Shown in pieces: positions 3,352 to 60,686 of a DNA stretch of 64,000 nucleotides (positions within the stretch are counted from its first letter, which is position 1; every line of letters begins with the position of its first letter). The translations under genes were made by a program, and so were the position numbers. The notes beneath the pieces were generated by a model. The model searched no databases. It was not told the DNA's origin and saw nothing but the letters and a program-made list of their open reading frames with translations. Source of the stretch: Streptomyces sannanensis (GTDB lineage: Bacteria > Actinomycetota > Actinomycetes > Streptomycetales > Streptomycetaceae); NCBI RefSeq assembly GCF_039536205.1, contig NZ_BAAAYL010000004.1, positions 48,934 through 112,933 on the forward strand, read 5' to 3'.

Positions 3352-4241
3352 AACTGATCGTTTCATCAGGTCTGTGGCGGGTCTTGGCAGTGGGGCCGCG
3401 TAACGGCAAGGTTCTGCAGGTGTCGGACGATCTTGTGCCTGATGACCTGTGGGAGCGCATCGCCCCGCTGCTCCCGCCCCGGCCTCCCCGTCGACGGCGG
3501 TACCCCGGGCGGTTTTGCCGACGGACGACCGCGCCGCGCTGCGTGGCATGGTCCATGTCCTGTGCAAGGGCGTGAGCTGGAAAGATGTGCCCGCGGAGCG
3601 GACAGGGTGCAGCGGGGTGACGGCCTGGCGGCGGCTGCGGGACTGGATCGAAGTCTGCGTCTGGCCCCGCCTTCACGCCGTCCCTCTCGCCGAACTACGG
3701 AAGGCCGGCCTGCTGGACATGGATGACGCCGCGGTCGACGCTTCGCACGTCAGAGCCCTCAAAGGGGGGCTCATACCGGACCTTCGTCGGTCGACCGGAC
3801 ACGGCCGGGCAGAAAGCACCATCTGATCGTCGGCCGACACGGCACACCGCTCGCCGTCTCGCTGACCGGCGGAAACCGGCACGATGTCACCCAGCTCATT
3901 CCCCTCCTGGACGCGATTCCGCCCATCCGCGGGCTGGTCCGCCGGCCCCGTAGCCGCCCCCGACGCGTGTTCGCCGACCGCGGCTACAACTTCGACAAGT
4001 ACCGCCGCATCCTCCGGGCCCGCGGCATCACACCCAAGATCGCCCGTCGCGGCGCTCCGCACGGCTCAGGACTGGGCAAGACTCGCTGGGTCGTCGAGCA
4101 GACCTTCGCCTGGCTCCACCAGTTCAAACGTCTCCGCATCCGCTACGAGATACGCGCCGACCTCCATCTCGGTCTCCTCCAACTCGCATGCGGCATCATC
4201 TGCTTGAGACGACTCCGAACCTCATTTTGAAACGATCAGTT
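3352..4241 (+). mobile_element. IS5-family element, full length with 14-bp inverted repeats
   Basis: The element is bounded by perfect 14-bp inverted repeats AACTGATCGTTTCA at 3352-3365 and 4228-4241 (890 bp in all). It contains one transposase gene spread over three frames. It lies in the same orientation as the truncated copy at 2207-2682. The right terminal repeat supplies the stop codon of the convergent MerR-type gene. Confidence 0.85.
3411..4230 (+). pseudogene. IS5-family transposase in three frames
   Basis: The protein can be followed through three frames. Part 1 reads VSDDLVPDDLWERIAPLLPP; part 2 (after about 3515) reads RAALRGMVHVLCKGVSWKDV and the catalytic-region sequence MDDAAVDASHVRALKGG; part 3 (from about 3765) reads KHHLIVGRHGTPLAVSLTGG, VFADRGYNFDKYRR and WVVEQTFAWLHQFKRLRIR. 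The first shift, near a GGGCGGTTTTGCC stretch, looks like a decay mutation. The second coincides with an AAAGGGGGGC run and could be a programmed -1 frameshift, as known for OrfA/OrfB in several IS5-family groups. Confidence 0.75.
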
Positions 4242-22732: not shown

Positions 22733-23320
22733 TCAAGGAGTGGTTCGAGTGAGGTCCTTGATCCAGATCATTGAGGCTCGAAGGTGGAGGCCGGCGAGGT
22801 AGCTGGCAGGGGTTTTGTCGTAGTGAGTGGCGATGCCTCGCCACGCCTTCAGCTTGTTGATCAGTCGCTCGACGGTGTTCCGCTCCTTGTAGAGGTCGGC
22901 GTCGTGGCTGACAGGCCTACCGCCCTTGCTGCCCTTCTTCTTGCGGTTGGCGGCCTGGTCCTTCTTCTCCGGGATGACGGCCTTGATGCGGCGTTTTCGC
23001 AGGTAGGCACGGTTTCCGCGGGACGAGTAGGCCTTGTCCCCGGCGACCGCGTCGGGCCGAGTGCGCGGACGCCCGACGGGCCCCCGGATCCGTATCTTCT
23101 TGAGCACGGGGATGAACTGTGGGCTGTCTGCGGCCTGTCCTGCGGTCAGGATCAACGCCAGCGGGCGGCATTTACGGTCGCCAGCGACATGGATCTTGCT
23201 GGTCTGCCCGCCCCTGGAGCGTCCGAGCAGGGCGGCTTTCAGTCGGAGTTTGCGTCGGCGCCGGATGCGTCGCCGTTCGTCCCGCTCAGGGCTGTTTCCG
23301 ACTTCCTGTCCGTCTTGCCC
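22733..23320 (-). CDS. IS427-type transposase, OrfB part
   Basis: The C-terminal half reads LLGRSRGGQTSKIHVAGDRK, LALILTAGQAADSPQFIPVL, VAGDKAYSSRGNRAYLRKRR with the second catalytic Asp, and ERNTVERLINKLKAWRGIAT with the catalytic Glu. It overlaps OrfA by frame in the hinge; an exact slippage site was not obvious. The open frame runs further upstream to 23599 but only the part after about 23320 is transposase-like. Confidence 0.78.
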   Translation of the reverse strand, partial: GQDGQEVGNSPERDERRRIRRRRKLRLKAALLGRSRGGQTSKIHVAGDRKCRPLALILTAGQAADSPQFIPVLKKIRIRGPVGRPRTRPDAVAGDKAYSSRGNRAYLRKRRIKAVIPEKKDQAANRKKKGSKGGRPVSHDADLYKERNTVERLINKLKAWRGIATHYDKTPASYLAGLHLRASMIWIKDLTRTTP

Positions 23321-23736
23321 TTCCGTGTCGCCCCCTTTTGTCGGGCCTTCTCCTCCTCGGCGGCGGCCTTCTCCAAGGCGGTGAGCATGTCCTGGTCGAG
23401 GTGCATCCCGGCGGCGTTGTGGTGGGCCCGGGCGGTGGTGGAGTCCACGCTGACCAGGGACAAGTCCACCTCGCCGCGCTTCGCGGCTTCCGCGATCAGG
23501 CCCTCCAGCAGGGCCTCGAAGACGCCGGCGTCTCTCCACTGCCGGAAGCGGTTGTGGACGGTCGGCCAGGCGCCGAACTCCTTCGGCATCTCCCGCCACT
23601 GCCCGCCCGTCCGGAACCGCCAGATCACGCCCGCGAACTGCTGCCGCAGCCGCTCGGGGTACGGACCGTACCTACCGATCGGCAAGTACGGCTCGATGAA
23701 CTCCCATTCGTCATCTGTAAGTTGCACGCGCGTCAT
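23239..23736 (-). CDS. IS427-type transposase, OrfA part
   Basis: A 165-residue N-terminal half: LTDDEWEFIEPYLPIGRYGP, WRFRTGGQWREMPKEFGAWP and SLVSVDSTTARAHHNAAG with the first catalytic Asp in VDST. It ends in a charged hinge (KGATRKGKTDRKSE). The second half is encoded by an overlapping frame downstream, as usual for this group, where one fused transposase is made by frameshifting in the hinge region. Confidence 0.82.
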   Translation of the reverse strand: MTRVQLTDDEWEFIEPYLPIGRYGPYPERLRQQFAGVIWRFRTGGQWREMPKEFGAWPTVHNRFRQWRDAGVFEALLEGLIAEAAKRGEVDLSLVSVDSTTARAHHNAAGMHLDQDMLTALEKAAAEEEKARQKGATRKGKTDRKSETALSGTNGDASGADANSD

Positions 23737-51835: not shown

Positions 51836-52933
51836 GAGGGCGTTTAGCGTGGGCGGATTGCCCTTTATCTCCTAGTAAGTTCCTCGCCAAGTTGGTGTGG
51901 TCTCGTCCGTTATGCGCTTGGCGAGGTTGTCGATCGACGCGACGTGGATCATGGCTTCGGAGCTGGTGGCGAGGGTCTCGTGGTCGCGGGCGAGTCGGCG
52001 GTGCATCATGATCCAACCCTTACTCCGCTCTACTACCCAGCGCCTTTTCACGACGTGAAAACCGCGAACTTGGGGGTTTCTTTCGACGACTTCGACGTCG
52101 ATTCCGAGCTGCGCTCCGTGTTCGACGACGGCCTTCTTGAAGCCGGTGTCGACCCAGCTCTTGGTAATGGTCGGGTAGGTTTTCTTGGCCTGATCGAGGA
52201 GGCGTATTCCCAGGGCGTTCTCGAAGAGGCTGGCGGCTGCGACGGTCACGGCGAGGATCAGGCCGATCGTGTCGGTGAGGATGCCTCGCTTCCGGCCCAC
52301 GATCTTCTTCGCGGCGTCGGTTCCCTGGCTGGTCGCGGGCACGTTGGTGGAGGTTTTCACGCTCTGGGTGTCGATGACGGAGGCCGTGGGTTCGGGCTTG
52401 CGTCCCTCTTTGACGCGGGCCAGTCCGGTCAGGTCGTAGTTGAGCTGGGCGAAGATTCCGTCGTCGCGCCAGGCGGCGTAGTAGGCGTAGACGGTGCCGT
52501 GGTTCGGGAAGTCGTGCGGGAGGTATTTCCAGGGGATTCCGGTGCGGTTCACGTAGAGAATCGCGTTGAACACGTCGCGAAGGTCGACTTTGGCCGGCTG
52601 GCCGGTGGGCCTTCGGTCGAGCCTGGCTTTTCGCCATGCCGTCAACGTCGGCTCGATCAAGGCCCATCGGGCGTCAGACAGGTCGCTGGGGTACGGCTTC
52701 CGCTGGCTCACGCCGTAGCGTTGGCGCGGGAGGGTCGGAAGGTGCCGTTCCGCTGATCATCGGGAGGTTCTGCCGCATCTTCACACCAGACGGACTCCCA
52801 GCGACAGGTGCGAGCGAAACGGATGACAGGCTTCAAGCGGCGAGAGGAGGCGAAACTTGCATATAGCTCAGACCGCCCCAAAATGGGTCAGTAATGAAAG
52901 CCGCTTTTCGGAACAGACCTACTAAACGCCCTC
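51836..52933 (-). mobile_element. IS5-family element with 12-bp inverted ends
   Basis: GAGGGCGTTTAG at 51836-51847 and its reverse complement at 52922-52933 enclose the transposase gene. The stop is 25 bp from the left end, as usual, but the right end lies 220 bp upstream of the start codon, more than expected, so extra sequence may have been captured there. The right side cuts the transposase-like gene that continues at 52934. Confidence 0.75.
51872..52711 (-). CDS. IS5-family transposase, intact
   Basis: A 279-residue DDE transposase: YPSDLSDARWALIEPTLTAW, LRDVFNAILYVNRTGIPWKY, TASVIDTQSVKTSTNVPATS (first Asp), GRKRGILTDTIGLILAVTVA, SWVDTGFKKAVVEHGAQLGI (second Asp) and RRWVVERSKGWIMMHRRLAR (Glu). 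Length and motifs are complete with no frameshift, so this is probably one of the few active transposase genes in the window. Confidence 0.88.
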   Translation of the reverse strand: MSQRKPYPSDLSDARWALIEPTLTAWRKARLDRRPTGQPAKVDLRDVFNAILYVNRTGIPWKYLPHDFPNHGTVYAYYAAWRDDGIFAQLNYDLTGLARVKEGRKPEPTASVIDTQSVKTSTNVPATSQGTDAAKKIVGRKRGILTDTIGLILAVTVAAASLFENALGIRLLDQAKKTYPTITKSWVDTGFKKAVVEHGAQLGIDVEVVERNPQVRGFHVVKRRWVVERSKGWIMMHRRLARDHETLATSSEAMIHVASIDNLAKRITDETTPTWRGTY

Positions 52934-54315: not shown

Positions 54316-54474
54316 GCGTTGCTCAGCCCTCGCTCTGCTGAAGATCCGCAAAGTGTGAGAAGCCGTATCTCAACCGAACGTGATCGCTTGATTTCTGCTG
54401 GTCAGGCATGGTCTAGCTTGAAATGAGGGAGGCATGCGGCGTCTTGTTTCGGCTCCTTGATCGAGGAGTGCGTG

Positions 54475-54996
54475 ATGGCGTCGGTGCTGGGAATGCTGGA
54501 GGAGCGGGAGACAGCGGCCCGGGTGCGGGTGGAAGGGCTGCGGGAGGAAGTCGCGCGGCTGGCGGGGGTGTTGGAGGCCGCGGAGATCGAGCTGGACCGG
54601 CGGGTGATCGCGCGGGAGGAGCTGGTCGAGGCCCTGGCGGCCTCGGCTGCCGAGACCACCGCCGTGACCGAGGCGGAAACCGTGTCCTCGCCCGCGCCGG
54701 TGCCGGGCTCGATCGTTCCGCCTTGGCGCGAGGGACTGCCGGTGACAGTGCTGGCGCTGGACTACCAGCGGATTCTGGGCGTGCTCGACGAGCGGCAGCC
54801 CGCGGGCCAAGGGCCGCTGAAGGCCAGGGAGATCACGGTTCAGCTGGGCCTGGAGGCAACGTCGGCGAAGGTCGAGGGGGTGCGCTCGAAGGCCCGGCGT
54901 CTGGCGGAGCGCGGGTGGCTCCTGCAGGAGACGTCGGGGGCATTCAGCGTCGGCCGGCGGCCCGTGGCCGTGCCAGACGCCGGCCCATCCGCGTGA
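54475..54996 (+). CDS. Hypothetical helical protein
   Basis: A 173-residue protein: [40 protein letters not shown] (a coiled coil), a Pro-rich linker, then [40 protein letters not shown] and [18 protein letters not shown], which look like a winged helix. GAGGAG 6 bp upstream selects ATG 54475 over an earlier TTG. Such proteins often accompany Streptomyces insertion sequences. Its 3' end overlaps, antiparallel, the end of an IS5-type transposase gene. Confidence 0.65.
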
Positions 54997-55093
54997 CCAT
55001 CGACCACCGGATCATCGCCTCGCTGCTGGCCGGCAACGTCTCGTAGTCCCGGGCCAGTCGGCGCGAATGCATCAGCCACGCGAACGTGCGCTC
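54944..55093 (-). pseudogene. C-terminal part of the split IS5-type transposase
   Basis: The minus strand reads [40 protein letters not shown] to a stop at 54944-54946. The N-terminal part lies at 57585-58232. The serine-recombinase element sits between, exactly between codons V-A-E and R-T-F. Joined, the two parts restore [20 protein letters not shown], the normal family sequence. Confidence 0.82.
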
Positions 55094-55120
55094 CATCGTC
55101 CAAGCACACTGCGCTTATGG
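55091..55120. promoter_or_regulatory. attL-type junction of the serine-recombinase element
   Basis: CTC core followed by the element arm CATCGTCCAAGCACACTGCG. Together with the right junction it reconstructs an attP of about 55 bp whose two arms match at 20 of 26 positions as inverted repeats around CTC, the typical architecture of large serine integrase sites. Confidence 0.65.
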
Positions 55121-55273
55121 ATAGTCAAAGCAGTGAGCGGATGCCGATAATCGGCCGTGAGGGCCTGCAGCGGTTGGTCGCTGTGGCCCGACGGTTGCGG
55201 GGCCGGCTGAGTGACGAGGGGAACGGGTCGTCATGCGCGACGACAGTGACGTCGGCCCCAGAGCCGAATTCCG

Positions 55274-55405
55274 GTGGTGCCGGACGGGCAGGTGTGGGCG
55301 GCGCTGCCGGAGGTGAACCGGCAGGCGGTGGTGGGGCAGTTGGTGCGGCTGGCGAGCCGCGCGTTGTCGGCCGCCGCGATGGCGAGTGAGCGGGACCGGC
55401 GATGA
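55274..55405 (+). CDS. Small frame coupled to the recombinase
   Basis: A 43-codon frame from GTG 55274: VVPDGQVWAALPEVNRQAVV then GQLVRLASRALSAAAMASER DRR and TGA at 55403-55405, overlapping the recombinase ATG (55402) as ATGA. Translational coupling and gene-like composition suggest that it is expressed, perhaps as a helper or directionality protein, or it is the tail of a decayed gene. No ribosome site is obvious. Confidence 0.45.
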   Translation: MVPDGQVWAALPEVNRQAVVGQLVRLASRALSAAAMASERDRR

Positions 55406-57564
55406 CCTCGGTGATGCCGTGGGAGCGGCCCGGCAGCAAGATCGACGACCGTCACCTGCAGCGGCTCGCGGTGATCTATGTCCGCCAGTCCACCCGCCAG
55501 CAGCTCGTCGACCACAAGGAGTCGACCCGGTTGCAGTACGCCCTGGTGGACCGGGCGGTCGCGCTGGGCTGGCAGGCGGACCGGGTCCTGGTGATCGACG
55601 AGGACCTGGGCAAGTCGGGGTCGAGTACGGTCGCCCGCACCGGCTTCCAGCGTCTGGTCACCGAGATCGGGCTGGACCACGTCGGTCTCGTGCTGGGGAT
55701 CGAGATGTCCCGTCTGGCCCGCTCCGGCAGGGACTGGTATCAGCTGATCGAGCTGTGCGCCCTGTCGGGTGCGTTACTGGCGGACACCGACGGGGTCTAC
55801 GACCCGGCCGAGTACAACGACAGGCTGCTGCTGGGGCTCAAGGGCACGATGAGTGAGGCCGAACTTCACCTGATCAAGCAGCGGATGTGGAGCGGGCGCC
55901 TGAACAAGGCCCGCCGTGGCGAGCTGGCCTTCCCCCTGCCCAGTGGCTATGTCCGCCGCCCGTCGGGGGAGGTGGCCCTGGACCCGGACGAGCAGGTGCA
56001 GACCGTGATCCGCCTGATCTTCGCGCAGTTCGAGCGGCTCGGCACATTGCATGGCGTCCTGCGTTATCTCGTCGACCATGACATCCAGTTGGGCATCCGG
56101 CTGCGGGAGGGGCCGGACAAGGGCACCCTGGAATGGCGAAGGCCGAACCGGATGACGCTGCAGAACCTGCTGCACAATCCTGCCTATGCCGGCATCTATG
56201 CCTACGGGCGGCGCCGGGTCGACCCGCGCCGCCAGGACCCGGCCCGGCCGAGCACCGGACGGGTCGTCCGCTCCCGGGACGGATGGCATGTGATGATCCC
56301 GAATGTCCTGCCCGCTTACATCAGCGTCGCCCAGTTCGAGGCGAACGAGGCGAAGCTGGCGGCCAACCGTGCCCGCGCCGAAGCCATGGGCGCGGTGCGA
56401 GGCGGCCCCGCGCTCGCGGCCGGGCTGGTGCACTGCGGACGCTGCAACCGGCGCATGAGCGTGCGCTACCACACCCAACACAGCAAGGCCCTGCCCGAGT
56501 ACGTGTGCGCTCGGGACATGACCAACTACGGCGCGGAGAAGAGCTGCCAGCTGCTCAACTCCGCCTGCGTGGACGCCTTCGTCGAGCAGCAGGTTCTCAC
56601 GGCGCTGACGCCCGCCGCCGTCGAGGTGTCCCTGCGGGCGGCCGACCAGGTCCTGGCCGAGCGGGCCGAGCTGGAACGGGTATGGTCGCAGCGGTTGGAG
56701 CGCGCCGCGCAGGACGCCGACCGGGCCCGCCGCAGCCATCACCTCGCCGAACCGGAGAACCGCCTGGTCGTGCGCCAGCTGGAGAAGGAGTGGGAGGACG
56801 CACTGGCCGTCCAGCAGCGGCTCCGCGAGGACTACGACCGCTTCACCCGCAGCAGCCCGCACATCCTCACTCCGGCCGAACGGCAGACCATCACGGCTCT
56901 GGCCGGCGACATCGAGGGTTTATGGCGTGCGCACAGCACCACGACAGCGGACCGCAAGGAGATCGTCCGCGCGGTCGTCGACAAGGTCGTCGTCACCGTG
57001 CTCGGCACCAGCGAGCGAGTGAAGGTCACGATCGTCTGGGCCGGCGGGACCACTACAGCGGGAGAGGTCATCCGCCCGGTCCAGCGGCTGGAACAGCTCA
57101 GCTACTACCCGCAACTGACCGATCGGATCCGCGAACTCGCAGGCCAGGGCATCGGCGCCAACGGGATCGCCGACCGCCTGGAGACCGAGGGATTCCGGCC
57201 CGCGAAGGGCGGCAAACGGATCTCCGCAGCCACCGTCCGCGACCTCATGCGCCGCCTCGCCTGCCCCGCAGGCCGCGTCCACCGGCACCGCCCCGCACCA
57301 CCTGGCGAGGAGCCCGGCCCGGACGAGTGGTGGCTCAAGCACCTGGCCGCCGAGCTGAACATGACCACCTCCACCCTCTACGCCTGGATCAACCGCGGCT
57401 GGATCACCACCCGCCAGGAGAGCCGCTGGCCCCACCGCCTCATCGCCCACGCCGACCAGCGAGAACTCGCCGAACTCCGCGAACGCCGCACCCGTCCGCC
57501 CGGCTGGTACAGCCGCCGCATCTGGACCGAGACCCCCGAAACAGCAGAGCAACAGACTCCATGA
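55402..57564 (+). CDS. Large serine recombinase
   Basis: A 720-residue recombinase. Resolvase domain ~20-165: AVIYVRQSTRQQ with catalytic Ser30, GIEMSRLARSGRDW, GTMSEAELHLIKQRM. Recombinase domain ~180-300: FPLPSGYVRRPSGEVALDPD, RPNRMTLQNLLHNPAYAGIY. Zinc ribbon ~345-390: VHCGRCNRRMSVRYH plus later Cys in CARDMTN and CQLL. A long coiled-coil insertion follows, then extra C-terminal HTH-like segments (LTDRIRELAGQGIGANGIAD, LNMTTSTLYAWINRGWITT). Longer than phage integrases such as phiC31 by ~100 residues. It should cut and join the CTC-centred att sites flanking its own element. Confidence 0.92.
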   Translation: MTSVMPWERPGSKIDDRHLQRLAVIYVRQSTRQQLVDHKESTRLQYALVDRAVALGWQADRVLVIDEDLGKSGSSTVARTGFQRLVTEIGLDHVGLVLGIEMSRLARSGRDWYQLIELCALSGALLADTDGVYDPAEYNDRLLLGLKGTMSEAELHLIKQRMWSGRLNKARRGELAFPLPSGYVRRPSGEVALDPDEQVQTVIRLIFAQFERLGTLHGVLRYLVDHDIQLGIRLREGPDKGTLEWRRPNRMTLQNLLHNPAYAGIYAYGRRRVDPRRQDPARPSTGRVVRSRDGWHVMIPNVLPAYISVAQFEANEAKLAANRARAEAMGAVRGGPALAAGLVHCGRCNRRMSVRYHTQHSKALPEYVCARDMTNYGAEKSCQLLNSACVDAFVEQQVLTALTPAAVEVSLRAADQVLAERAELERVWSQRLERAAQDADRARRSHHLAEPENRLVVRQLEKEWEDALAVQQRLREDYDRFTRSSPHILTPAERQTITALAGDIEGLWRAHSTTTADRKEIVRAVVDKVVVTVLGTSERVKVTIVWAGGTTTAGEVIRPVQRLEQLSYYPQLTDRIRELAGQGIGANGIADRLETEGFRPAKGGKRISAATVRDLMRRLACPAGRVHRHRPAPPGEEPGPDEWWLKHLAAELNMTTSTLYAWINRGWITTRQESRWPHRLIAHADQRELAELRERRTRPPGWYSRRIWTETPETAEQQTP

Positions 57565-57587
57565 GTGCACTGTGCTTGACAGATCTC
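57561..57587. promoter_or_regulatory. attR-type junction of the serine-recombinase element
   Basis: ATGAGTGCACTGTGCTTGAC then AGAT and the CTC core, just beyond the recombinase start-to-stop. Outside the core, TGCCACCCAGCGC is transposase sequence (codons for RWVA on the minus strand). Confidence 0.65.
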
Positions 57588-58232
57588 TGCCACCCAGCGC
57601 CTGGGCAGCACCACGAACCCCTCCATGTTGTCGGTGCGTTTGACGATCTCCAAGGTCAGCGCGAGTTTCTGACGGCACCAGTCGACGAGGGAGCCGGTGT
57701 AGCCGCCGTCGGCCCAGACGAGAGTGATGTCGCGGTGCAGGCGGCGCAGCCGCATCAGCAGGCCCGCGGCGGCGTCCCGGTCGCCGATGTTCGCGGCGGT
57801 GACCGCGACAACCAGGAGCAGGCCGAGGCAGTCGGTCACGATGTGCCGCTTGCGCCCGGGTACCTTCTTCCCGCCGTCGTAGCCGCGTGAGGAGGCCGGC
57901 ACCGTCGCGGCGGCCCGCACCGACTGTGCGTCGATGATCCCCGCCGTGGGCTCGGCCTCACGGCCTTCGTGTTCCCTCACCCGTGCGCGCAGCCGGTCGT
58001 GGAACTCGGTGATCAGCCCGTGCTCGCGCCAGCGGCGGAAGAAGGCGTAGACGCGGCCCCAGTCGGGGAGTCCGCGGGCATCGCCCGCCACGAGATCCCG
58101 CCCGCGACCAGGTAGCGGATCGCGTCCAGCAGTTGGCGGTGGCAGTAGCCTTCCGGCCGTCCGCCTTTGCCCTGGAGCCAGGCCGGCACCGGCAGCAACG
58201 GCCGGATGGCCGCCCACTCCGTATCCGTCATG
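57585..58232 (-). pseudogene. N-terminal part of the split IS5-type transposase
   Basis: From ATG 58232: TDTEWAAIRPLLPVPAWLQG, QLLDAIRYLVAGGISWRAMP, then a one-base deletion near 58068 shifts the frame, and the protein continues WGRVYAFFRRWREHGLITEF, GIIDAQSVRAAATVPASSRG (first Asp), GRKRHIVTDCLGLLLVVAVT, LVWADGGYTGSLVDWCRQKL (second Asp) and GFVVLPRRWVAE. It was thus damaged both by a frameshift and by the inserted element. Confidence 0.82.
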
Positions 58233-58317
58233 TCCGACGGATACCGGCGTTCCCGGTCGGGACGGTCGGCCGCGTTGCCGTACACGTGCGCGAGGCAATC
58301 ACACGATGGAGCAGCCG

Positions 58318-58500
58318 AGTTGAACTGGACGGGCTCGGACGCGTACAACAACGACACCAGGGCCTCCCGGCACTGCTCGGTTAGATTCGCATCCCCGAGC
58401 TACCGAGGGGCCCTGTCTTCATGCACGCACAACGGGAAGATCACCCCGACGGGAAACCTGTTCGACCCCCACGTTCCATGATCGGTTGAGATACGGCTTC
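58318..58500 (+). repeat. Fragment of an exported-protein-like gene tail, copy 2
   Basis: Encodes NWTGSDAYNNDTRASRHCSV, RFASPSYRGALSSCTHNGKI and TPTGNLFDPHVP, the counterpart of 27998-28195, and shares its 3' noncoding sequence to about GATACGGCTTCTG. It directly adjoins the start side of the split IS5-type transposase. Confidence 0.65.
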
Positions 58501-58605
58501 TGAGCCTCTACCAAGTCGTCCGCGAACTGCAGACCCTGCTCGCAGCCTGGACCGGCGCCTGCCCCACCTGCCACCGCGACATACCAACACTCGCGCCAAC
58601 CTGAC
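58501..58605 (+). pseudogene. Short C-terminal coding relic
   Basis: The plus strand reads LSLYQVVRELQTLLAAWTGA then CPTCHRDIPTLAPT and a stop. The CPTCHRD end looks like a transposase tail, but I cannot assign the family. It lies between the preceding gene-tail repeat and the IS427-type element. Confidence 0.35.
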
Positions 58606-58639: not shown

Positions 58640-58937
58640 AATCGGCTGCTTGCAAGAGATCTTCGAGCCAGATCATCGAAGCACGGAGTTCGAGGCCGGC
58701 GACGTAGCTCTCGGGTGTTTTGTCGAAGCGTGTGGCGATGCCGCGCCAGTCCTTCAGCCGGTTGATCAGGCGCTCGACGGCGTTCCGTTCCTTGTAGAGG
58801 TCGGCGTCGTGGCTGACCGGCCGCCCGCCCTGGCTGCCTTTCTTCTTGCGGTTGGCGGCCTGGTCCTTCTTCTCCGGGATGACCGCCTTGATGTGGCATT
58901 TGCGCGGGTAGGCGCGATTGGCGCGGGACGAGTAGGC
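58640..58937 (-). pseudogene. IS427-type transposase, C-terminal part
   Basis: The minus strand reads SSRANRAYPRKCHIKAVIPE, KKDQAANRKKKGSQGGRPVS, YKERNAVERLINRLKDWRGI (catalytic Glu) and LRASMIWLEDLLQAAD to the stop. It continues from the N-terminal part at 60707: ...AADK|AYSSR... once the IS110 element is removed. Confidence 0.82.
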
Positions 58938-58939
58938 CT

Positions 58940-59420
58940 AATGGGGCGCGAAGGACGGTAAACGAGCCCAGTTCCCCGCCTCCCTGGGAAGGGGTGCTGG
59001 CAGCGCGGAGCCGGCTTTCAGGGCGCGAGCCGAGCCTTTGAGTATGCCCGGACCTTGGAGTCCTTTGACAAGACGAGGTCGGCTTCGCGCCCATCGGTGT
59101 GCTTCGAGATGTTCAGGACGAGGCGGGATCCGCTGGCAAGAGCCTCCAAGCGGTCGCGTTGATGCAGTGAAGGGGCGTCTTTGGCCGCTGTGCTACCGGT
59201 CGGTCCGAGATGCGGTTCGCTGTCCGCAGTCTGAGCCGGTTGTGCGGATTACCTCTCACCTCTGCCTTGAGCTCCCAGCTCTGAAGCAGACCGAGGGCCG
59301 CATGACTCGCTGGGGTTGCGAACGGCTGGTGGGATGACGTGCCTTGAGCACTTCCATTAGGGAGCACGCGCACCCTGCAAGGCTCTGGCCTGGGGAAAAG
59401 CCGCGACGAAGGAGGGCTGG
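58940..59420 (+). ncRNA. IS110 left noncoding region, possible bridge RNA locus
   Basis: No gene is present in 481 bp ahead of the transposase. In the IS110 group the 5' noncoding end is known to encode a structured bridge RNA with loops that pair to donor and target. Several potential stems are visible (for example GGACCTTGGAGTCC near 59050). I could not delimit the RNA or verify its guide loops by eye, so this is an inference from family knowledge. Confidence 0.4.
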
Positions 59421-60686
59421 ATGGAGATCACCGAATTAATGACGCCCGTGTTCTGTGGGGTGGACTGGGCCGAAGACCACCACGACATCGCGCTGGTCGA
59501 TGCCGGGGGAAAGCAACTCGCCAAAGTGCGGATCACTGACGATGCGGCAGGGTTCGGCCAGCTCACCGCCCTGCTCACCGAACACGGCGACAGCGAGGGC
59601 GCCCCGATCCCCGTGGCGATCGAGACCTCTCGAGGGCTCCTCGTCGCCTGCCTGCGGGCCACCGGCCGGCCGGTCTTCGCGATCAATCCGCTGGCGGTCG
59701 CCCGCTACCGGGACCGGCACTCTGTCGCCCGGAAGAAGTCCGACGCCGTCGACGCCGCGGCACTGGCCAACATTCTGCGGACCGACATGGCAGCCCATCG
59801 GCCGCTGCCTGCAGATTCCGAGCTTGTGCAGGCCATTGCCGTGCTTGCGCGGGCCCAGCAGGACGCCGTCTGGGACCGCGGCCAGGCCCACAACAAGCTC
59901 CGCTCACAGCTACGCGAGTTCTACCCGGCCATCCTGGAGGCCTTCGCCCAGCACAAGCACGGTCTGTGTTCACGGGAGGCCCGCACCATCCTGGCCGCCG
60001 CCCCGACACCGACGATGGCCGCGACGCTAACCCGACGGCGGCTGCAGGCCCTGCTCAAGCAAGCCGGCCGAGTGCGCGGCATCCAGGCCGAAGCCGACAG
60101 GATCCACGAGGTCTTCCAGCGTGACTATCTCCACCAGCTTCCGCAGGTCGAAGCAGCTCTCGGCCAGCAGACGTCCGCCCTGCTTCGGCAACTGAACACC
60201 GCCTGCCACAACGCCGACCAGCTCGAAGAAGCCACCGCCCAGACCTTCGACGACCACCCGGATGCGCCGGTCATCCGCAGCTTTCCGGGCCTCGGATCCT
60301 TAACCGGCGCCCGGGTCCTTGCGGAGATCGGTGATGACCGGAGCCGGTTCGCAACGGCCGGTTCGCTGAAGGCCTACGCCGGAAGCGCCCCGGTCACTCG
60401 GGCCAGCGGCAAGAGCTGCGTGGTCATGAGCCGACGGGTCAAGAATCAGCGGCTGGCCGCTGTCGGCTACGTGTGGGCCTTCGTCTCCCTCACCAGGTCA
60501 CCAGGCGCCAGAGCACACTACGACCGTCGCAGGAAAGCCGGCGACCGCCACGTCGCCGCACAAAGGAACCTGTTCAACCGCTTCATGGGCATGCTCTTCC
60601 ACTGTCTCCAGCACGGCCATGCCTACGACGAAGCGACCGCCTTTCCGCACCAGCAGTCAGCACAGCTCTCCGCCGAAGCAGCTTGA
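59421..60686 (+). CDS. IS110-family recombinase (transposase)
   Basis: A 421-residue protein. The N-terminal RuvC-like DEDD domain is visible: VFCGVDWAEDHHDIALVDA (Asp14), PVAIETSRGLLVACLRATG (Glu), and SVARKKSDAVDAAALANILR (Asp pair). A coiled middle follows, then the C-terminal domain: RSFPGLGSLTGARVLAEIGD, AGSLKAYAGSAPVTRASGKS (the conserved Ser region), KAGDRHVAAQRNLFNRFMGM. GAAGGAGG precedes the ATG. It is intact and may be active. A relic of a similar C-terminus lies at 14363-14500. Confidence 0.92.
   Translation: MEITELMTPVFCGVDWAEDHHDIALVDAGGKQLAKVRITDDAAGFGQLTALLTEHGDSEGAPIPVAIETSRGLLVACLRATGRPVFAINPLAVARYRDRHSVARKKSDAVDAAALANILRTDMAAHRPLPADSELVQAIAVLARAQQDAVWDRGQAHNKLRSQLREFYPAILEAFAQHKHGLCSREARTILAAAPTPTMAATLTRRRLQALLKQAGRVRGIQAEADRIHEVFQRDYLHQLPQVEAALGQQTSALLRQLNTACHNADQLEEATAQTFDDHPDAPVIRSFPGLGSLTGARVLAEIGDDRSRFATAGSLKAYAGSAPVTRASGKSCVVMSRRVKNQRLAAVGYVWAFVSLTRSPGARAHYDRRRKAGDRHVAAQRNLFNRFMGMLFHCLQHGHAYDEATAFPHQQSAQLSAEAA

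Follow-up and report, generated by a model that had tools for sequence, protein, structure and literature searches.

A 64,000-nt stretch of DNA from Streptomyces sannanensis (GCF_039536205.1, contig NZ_BAAAYL010000004.1, 48,934–112,933 of the forward strand; hereafter the window) carries a 2.49-kb element which very probably (about 0.87) is a minimal integrative element of the large serine recombinase (LSR) type that parasitises insertion sequences (ISs). Its attB would be the DNA that encodes the DDE catalytic motif of the transposase, with the crossover at the codon of the catalytic glutamate. This reading was reached by comparing sequences. A first-pass annotation of the window had proposed a mini integrative element with a 720-residue serine recombinase; the element was confirmed and lies inside a complete IS of the IS5 family. 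The features are listed below by window position.

54358..58501, unstranded: complete host IS, IS5 family, carrying the element (inverted repeat search and alignment to an empty copy, L095; the N-terminal piece of the transposase matches NF033580 below cut-off)
54944..55093, minus strand: C-terminal part of the transposase (ORF and junction reading)
55092..55093, unstranded: attL crossover dinucleotide TC, which is GA of the Glu codon on the opposite strand (arm symmetry and other sites)
55094..57585, plus strand: LSR element, 2.49 kb, between the two crossover dinucleotides (junction comparison)
55094..55120, plus strand: left attP arm (20 of 27 mirror matches to the right arm)
55117..55389, plus strand: ORF1, of which only the first part (PIIGREGLxRLxxVAxRLRxR) looks conserved when leaders are compared by eye
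55233..55405, plus strand: ORF2, with a conserved start ATG in one frame and a conserved body (LPEVNRQAVV) in the −1 frame; its stop overlaps the LSR start
55402..57564, plus strand: LSR, 720 aa (PF00239, PF07508, PF13408; Ser in YVRQS, zinc ribbon, long coiled-coil-type helices, extra C-terminal part)
57559..57585, plus strand: right attP arm (mirror matches to the left arm)
57586..57587, unstranded: attR crossover dinucleotide TC (arm symmetry and other sites)
57586..58298, minus strand: N-terminal part of the transposase (..LPRRWVA and GA of the Glu codon; ORF and profile matches), the protein's very start being in another frame

The host IS terminates in AGAAGCCGTATCTCAACC inverted repeats, which agree at every position for 18 bases or more, and TGA flanks it at either end. 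Its transposase is in frame across the element (..LPRRWVA / ERTFAWL..). A relative carries this IS uninterrupted (L095). The copy is 85 and 90% identical to the two flanks in the window, its alignments to them share 4 bases at the junction, and its transposase reads straight through the predicted attB (LPRRWVAERTFAWL). The reconstruction of attB and attP offered in the first-pass annotation is upheld by this reading frame and by the empty copy, which is an intact IS5-type relative of the kind it had suggested looking for. A degenerate form of the site (at most 2 mismatches) was present in 24 of 100 relatives, one of which was the genome that the window comes from, where it lay at a different IS. 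ISs abound in the window: further DDE_Tnp_1 transposases or fragments with attB-like Glu codons lie at 1799–2671, 3727–4227, 51875–52756, 22736–23671 and 58641–58937, and an IS110-type transposase (PF01548, PF02371) lies at 59361–60683, just outside the host IS. An AlphaFold model of the transposase was rejected as evidence (pLDDT 38.8), and a PDB sequence search with an IS4 target gave no match.

To find the ends of the elements, the DNA to the left and right of each LSR gene was searched for arms that mirror each other about one and the same dinucleotide. The best arm pair in the window had 20 of 27 matching bases around TC; the palindromic architecture described earlier, with arms of ~26 bp matching at 20 of 26 positions, was thus retained with a corrected count. 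CTC is common to both junctions, as had been noticed, and was rejected as a three-base core in favour of TC because both the arm symmetry and the other sites point to the dinucleotide. In the 29 copies with two junctions (of 43 tabulated sites), the arms matched at 16–23 of 27 positions, L056 having the weakest (16/27), and for each copy no more than 0.1% of 2000 letter shuffles did as well, a proportion uncorrected for the choice of positions. The symmetry in the other copies was centred on TC, or on GC in one and GA in one, so that the further recombinase copies earlier proposed for comparison were not scattered over unrelated targets devoid of symmetry. Arms by themselves were not a reliable marker of the ends in every locus: chance pairs equalled or exceeded the true pair in L003, L007, L008 and L071, the true pair of L056 fell below the search threshold, and in several loci the best score went to the same arms a few bases out of register. 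The ends in such loci were fixed by the conserved arm sequences and the split gene. A short consensus with at most 3 mismatches occurred at 4 places in the window, a number also given by 7 of 100 shuffles and not clearly above chance.

The domain order of the protein is that of an LSR: an N-terminal resolvase domain with the serine, followed by a recombinase domain and a zinc ribbon with coiled coil. Ser30 and Cys 345, 348, 369 and 382 were invariant in 37 sequences, and the predicted model, which is weak in its first 190 residues, has long helices at residues 387–483. The sites also agree with this class, having a short core common to attP and attB and, in the 29 two-junction copies, attP arms inverted around a dinucleotide; the 720-aa protein would be the catalyst. 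Solved relatives were a resolvase-family protein (3guv) and SPbeta YokA by sequence, and the SPbeta and PhiC31 integrases by fold, the latter at TM-scores that are low because the model is weak. Residues of approximately 640–700 in the C-terminal part (an inferred range) may resemble the Xis/MerR-type winged helices 4j2n (E 0.43) and 8dgl; the scores are non-significant and the Xis-like resemblance of the model is only a hint. No other close copy of the LSR occurs in its genome, where the second match is 34% identical over 102 residues.

Loci were collected in which the LSR was at least 50% identical to that of the window in the best aligned piece, and the merging of duplicates left 49 distinct loci. 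Plasmids are represented by 11 fetched records, chosen from the 523 plasmid records that match the window LSR. Searching further groups gained few additional members; the protein family has at least 7999 matches at E 1e-30. The junction could be read in 46 of the 49 loci (unreadable in L011, L023 and L028), which comprise the 43 tabulated sites together with L044, L082 and L084. The target was visible on one side only in 18 of the 46, including L013, where the contig stops at the right core, and the third base of the Glu codon was out of view in seven of the one-sided loci (L022, L025, L038, L047, L074, L076 and L082).

The crossover dinucleotide was GA of a transposase Glu codon in 44 of the 46 readable loci, with the element antisense in 42 (core TC) and sense in two (core GA; L037 and L082). 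The two exceptions were L004, the one two-junction copy with unlike dinucleotides on its two sides (TG left, TC right, giving Gln or Glu), and L016, which has GC on both sides and the Ala codon GCG. Core and target codon have both changed in L016, which suggests that the core may change together with its target. The transposases belong to seven families, assigned with NCBIfam for the representative targets given below and by eye from the same motifs for the remaining loci.

IS5: NF033580 (window, L055, L019)
IS701: NF033540 (L058, L073, L056)
IS4: NF033592 (L071) and NF033591 (L083)
ISAs1: NF033564 (L037)
IS630: NF033545 (L038, L082)
IS1380: NF033539 (L084)
NF041680 (L017, L034, L044)

Being fragments, several transposase pieces scored below the curated cut-off. 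The profile matches end at a common place in each family. The N-side matches to PF01609 stop at 161–163 of 200 in the five pieces matching it (window, L058, L071, L037 and L055), and the IS701 pieces of L058, L073 and L056 all stop at 321 of 363. The IS630 match stops at 265 in L038 and at 266 of 299 in L082, where the Glu is included, and that of NF041680 stops at 327 in L017 and starts at 328 in L044. We take the Glu of the ISAs1, IS630, IS1380 and NF041680 targets to be catalytic from their familiar motifs. In the IS4 family the Glu of Y-2-R-3-E-6-K is described as the DDE Glu in the available part of PMC2266710. The hosts were mostly Streptomyces and kin, with two Leptolyngbya plasmids (L055, L083) and alphaproteobacterial plasmids (L056, L082, L084) in addition, so that the targets span actinobacteria, cyanobacteria and alphaproteobacteria. 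The earlier suggestion that a transposase gene common in Streptomyces offers many landing sites was right as to their number but too narrow, the target being a Glu codon in seven families and three phyla rather than a single IS5 transposase of Streptomyces.

In the proposed mechanism the LSR would recombine attP, whose arms mirror each other on either side of TC, with an attB formed by the DNA that encodes the DDE motif where its third catalytic residue lies; the crossover would fall on the two bases that open the Glu codon. The inserted element, antisense in nearly every case, would break the transposase at the catalytic Glu and thereby silence that IS. The DNA of the motif recurs in many IS families, which would offer one family of enzymes widespread and repeated sites to land in, ones that the cell can do without.

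The aim at the codon may be set by DNA sequence alone. A matrix of 38 bases (~25 bits) was built from 26 sites, L004, L016 and the one-sided sites having been excluded beforehand; the core GA is the sole invariant part of these sites. When 214 kb (the window and 12 loci) were scanned, 5 background matches reached the median site score, one of which was a junction while the other 4 fell at Glu codons of proteins matching DDE_Tnp_1 (one weakly, E 0.0017). The scan thus indicates that DNA sequence can pick out such Glu codons, given that the training sites are transposases and the scanned DNA is transposase-rich. Some sites scored low when left out of the matrix (L083, 1.2; L037, 9.6; L071, 12.2), with 430 background matches at the lowest score, and one matrix therefore does not describe all of the enzymes. 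Codon-phase analysis of attB gave no clear signal.

Two genomes bear on how the elements travel. The chromosome of S. olivoreticuli holds a 2513-bp element twice (L018, L019), with 0 mismatches, in different ISs whose transposase flanks are 38–44% identical position by position, and the element must therefore move by itself. Genome G1027 (L099, L100, L113) holds three copies, without a mismatch, of a 4043-bp unit in which the element occupies the Glu codon of an IS4-family IS. Each unit lies between its own 8-bp direct repeats, read by eye as three different target duplications, which implies that the element also rides its host IS. Searched with the N-terminal part of the transposase, this genome yielded 3 matches (E 1e-40), each next to a split copy, and no uninterrupted transposase. 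Most likely the IS moved with its passenger, either because a transposase acted in trans or because the passenger had left for a time; the less likely alternative is that three identical IS copies were invaded separately.

These units are also what one would expect if a single old insertion into an ancestral transposase had been passed down with the IS, as is the alignment of the whole IS and element of L005 to those of the window over 4161 bp at 89%. The target families likewise cluster on the LSR tree (46 rows), with 19 changes of label against a shuffled mean of 30.9. The same tree is partly discordant, as the least possible number of changes is 15 and neighbours lie in different families (L018 in IS5 beside L034 in NF041680; L032 in IS701 beside L071 in IS4), and L095 shows the host IS of the window without the element. 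Single descent is false for at least L018 and L019, where identical elements occupy two different ISs, and as a general account we regard it as extremely improbable. From the tree, LSR lineages appear to keep one target family for a while and then to switch.

A relaxed, multi-targeting LSR that used many loosely matching sites, with the harmless insertions in transposases surviving, would account for the variable attB of near-identical enzymes (21 to 35 of 42 bases shared by pairs among five elements at least 92% alike), and multi-targeting LSRs are described in the accessible portion of PMC10083194. Survival cannot, however, select one codon inside a transposase, and the same codon was used in 44 of 46 loci and seven families; this explanation is unlikely. 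Guidance of target choice by more than the LSR's reading of DNA, for example by a leader RNA or by contact with the transposase, would suit the wide range of targets and the leader of 247 to 335 bases found ahead of the LSR in the 36 copies compared. It fits poorly with one identical element using two sites of different sequence, and we consider it less probable still, if not quite so improbable as descent from one insertion. Recognition of the Glu codon by the recombinase itself is thus the explanation preferred here.

The element had been said to hold almost nothing besides the recombinase and a coupled frame of 43 codons. Hardly any cargo was indeed found: no structural or transfer genes, by which a phage or ICE would be known, occur in the 2.5-kb element, whose content is the LSR and two short leader frames. 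The 43-codon frame proved to be the conserved end of a small gene (ORF2) with its conserved start in another frame, and a further short conserved frame (ORF1) starts at 55117. ORF1 begins where the left arm ends on its inner side; compared by eye, most copies keep the motif P.IG..GL..L. The body of ORF2 was anchored in 35 leaders, in 30 of which an ATG or GTG stands in the next frame 7–9 codons before C_CCC, a count taken with no shuffled control; in 8 leaders the body's own frame has no start. L027 lacks the start, L039, L073 and L079 lack C_CCC in that frame, and ORF2 of L056 has an in-frame ATG of its own, making a shift unnecessary. The conserved C_CCC before the LSR is probably the site of a −1 programmed frameshift, proposed for the window at CCCC 55256–55259. 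A +1 frameshift from ORF1 into ORF2 was rejected, the conserved start and C_CCC fitting a −1 shift better. A PHROG search gave no match to the leader frames, and a part for ORF1 and ORF2 as directionality factor or regulator is a guess.

More distant LSRs (34–46% identity) lie in different targets, which were read from the right flanks with inexact boundaries. These were rve transposases (L041, L049, L080, L066), IstA (L048, L064, L065), IS3-type transposases (L050, L075, L077), group II intron reverse transcriptases (L042, L069), IstB (L057), TnpB of IS66 (L085), a tyrosine recombinase (L063), a PGA_cap gene (capsule-type protein, PF09587; L046) and a DinB/MST gene (L043). Pfam was used to check 8 of the 15 mobile-element cases together with L046 and L043, the rest being assigned by eye; the scores of L041 and L063 were below cut-off, and L061, L062, L067, L068 and L081 were unreadable. 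The notion that the whole superfamily inserts only into mobile elements was rejected on account of L046 and L043. The recombinases of L042 and L069 lie in the same sense within their reverse transcriptase genes. Six loci (L041, L048, L049, L075, L077 and L080) have an extra gene upstream of the recombinase, helix-turn-helix-like by eye (..GGPxALVPGKPGPKGPxKLT..HPRSIERALARRR).

Tentatively, and with more doubt than belief, these enzymes might be seen as a large guild of LSRs, possibly with thousands of members, that have specialised as parasites of mobile elements, each lineage reading the codons of a catalytic or otherwise conserved motif as DNA. As excision would give back the intact Glu codon, the element could serve its host IS as a switch that can be reversed. 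The targets would then be the Glu of DDE in the window clade and, in the distant kin, the stretch leading up to the Glu in transposases of the integrase-core type (IS3, IS21 and others), the reverse transcriptase of group II introns, IstB and TnpB of IS66. Codons for catalytic residues have been proposed as safe harbours for introns and inteins. If the main reading is true, the recombinase would recognise on DNA a functional motif that very different genes have in common, and would constitute a natural homing system against transposases. It would make testable how an LSR tolerates a varied attB, whether IS activity in genomes is curbed in this way, and whether mobile DNA in general finds safe harbour at catalytic-residue codons. 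Since a split codon often shows where an element ends, a family with so many matches is also useful for finding new recombinases and their sites.

Among the papers listed in a literature search on serine recombinases in transposases, which covered open-access published work, none reports an aim at transposase catalytic codons. With the large serine integrases of the PhiC31 and SPbeta YokA type the element shares PF00239, PF07508 and PF13408, a symmetric attP and a 2-bp core; it differs in its 720-aa enzyme with an extra C-terminal part, in having hardly any cargo, and in a target that is a codon conserved across gene families. The element was not seen in a phage: 113 phage records matched, none of the 113 covering 80% of the query and all being below 60% identity. 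The multi-targeting, TndX-like LSR clade, as far as the available text of PMC10083194 describes it, may resemble the present one in that close enzymes use different target genes. One identical element here lies in two target genes, and the closest kin of the window, taken without clustering at 50% identity, are all in IS5-type transposases. The worked example in that text has a T/A-rich motif around TT and names no transposase preference, whereas the motif of the window element is a catalytic codon, and DUF4368, common though not universal in multi-targeting LSRs, was not found in the window LSR by Pfam. The same portion of that systematic study reports other target genes, among them clusters of LSRs on a single conserved host gene such as Mg chelatase or prolyl isomerase; there too a conserved coding site is hit, whereas the targets here are enzymes of other mobile elements in several families. 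IS607 transposases also use a serine recombinase to move a small element, but, in the passages available from PMC4058570 and PMC6188088, have an inverted domain order and minimal target specificity; the DNA-binding domain does not precede the catalytic domain in the window enzyme, which has the LSR order and precise sites. In lifestyle the nearest parallel, judging from the accessible part of PMC4238363, is the group II intron RmInt1 in ISRm2011-2, a mobile element whose natural site is an IS transposase gene and which limits that IS. RmInt1 is a retrohoming RNA, spliced from the transcript and seated in one IS, whereas the window element would act by DNA recombination in seven families.
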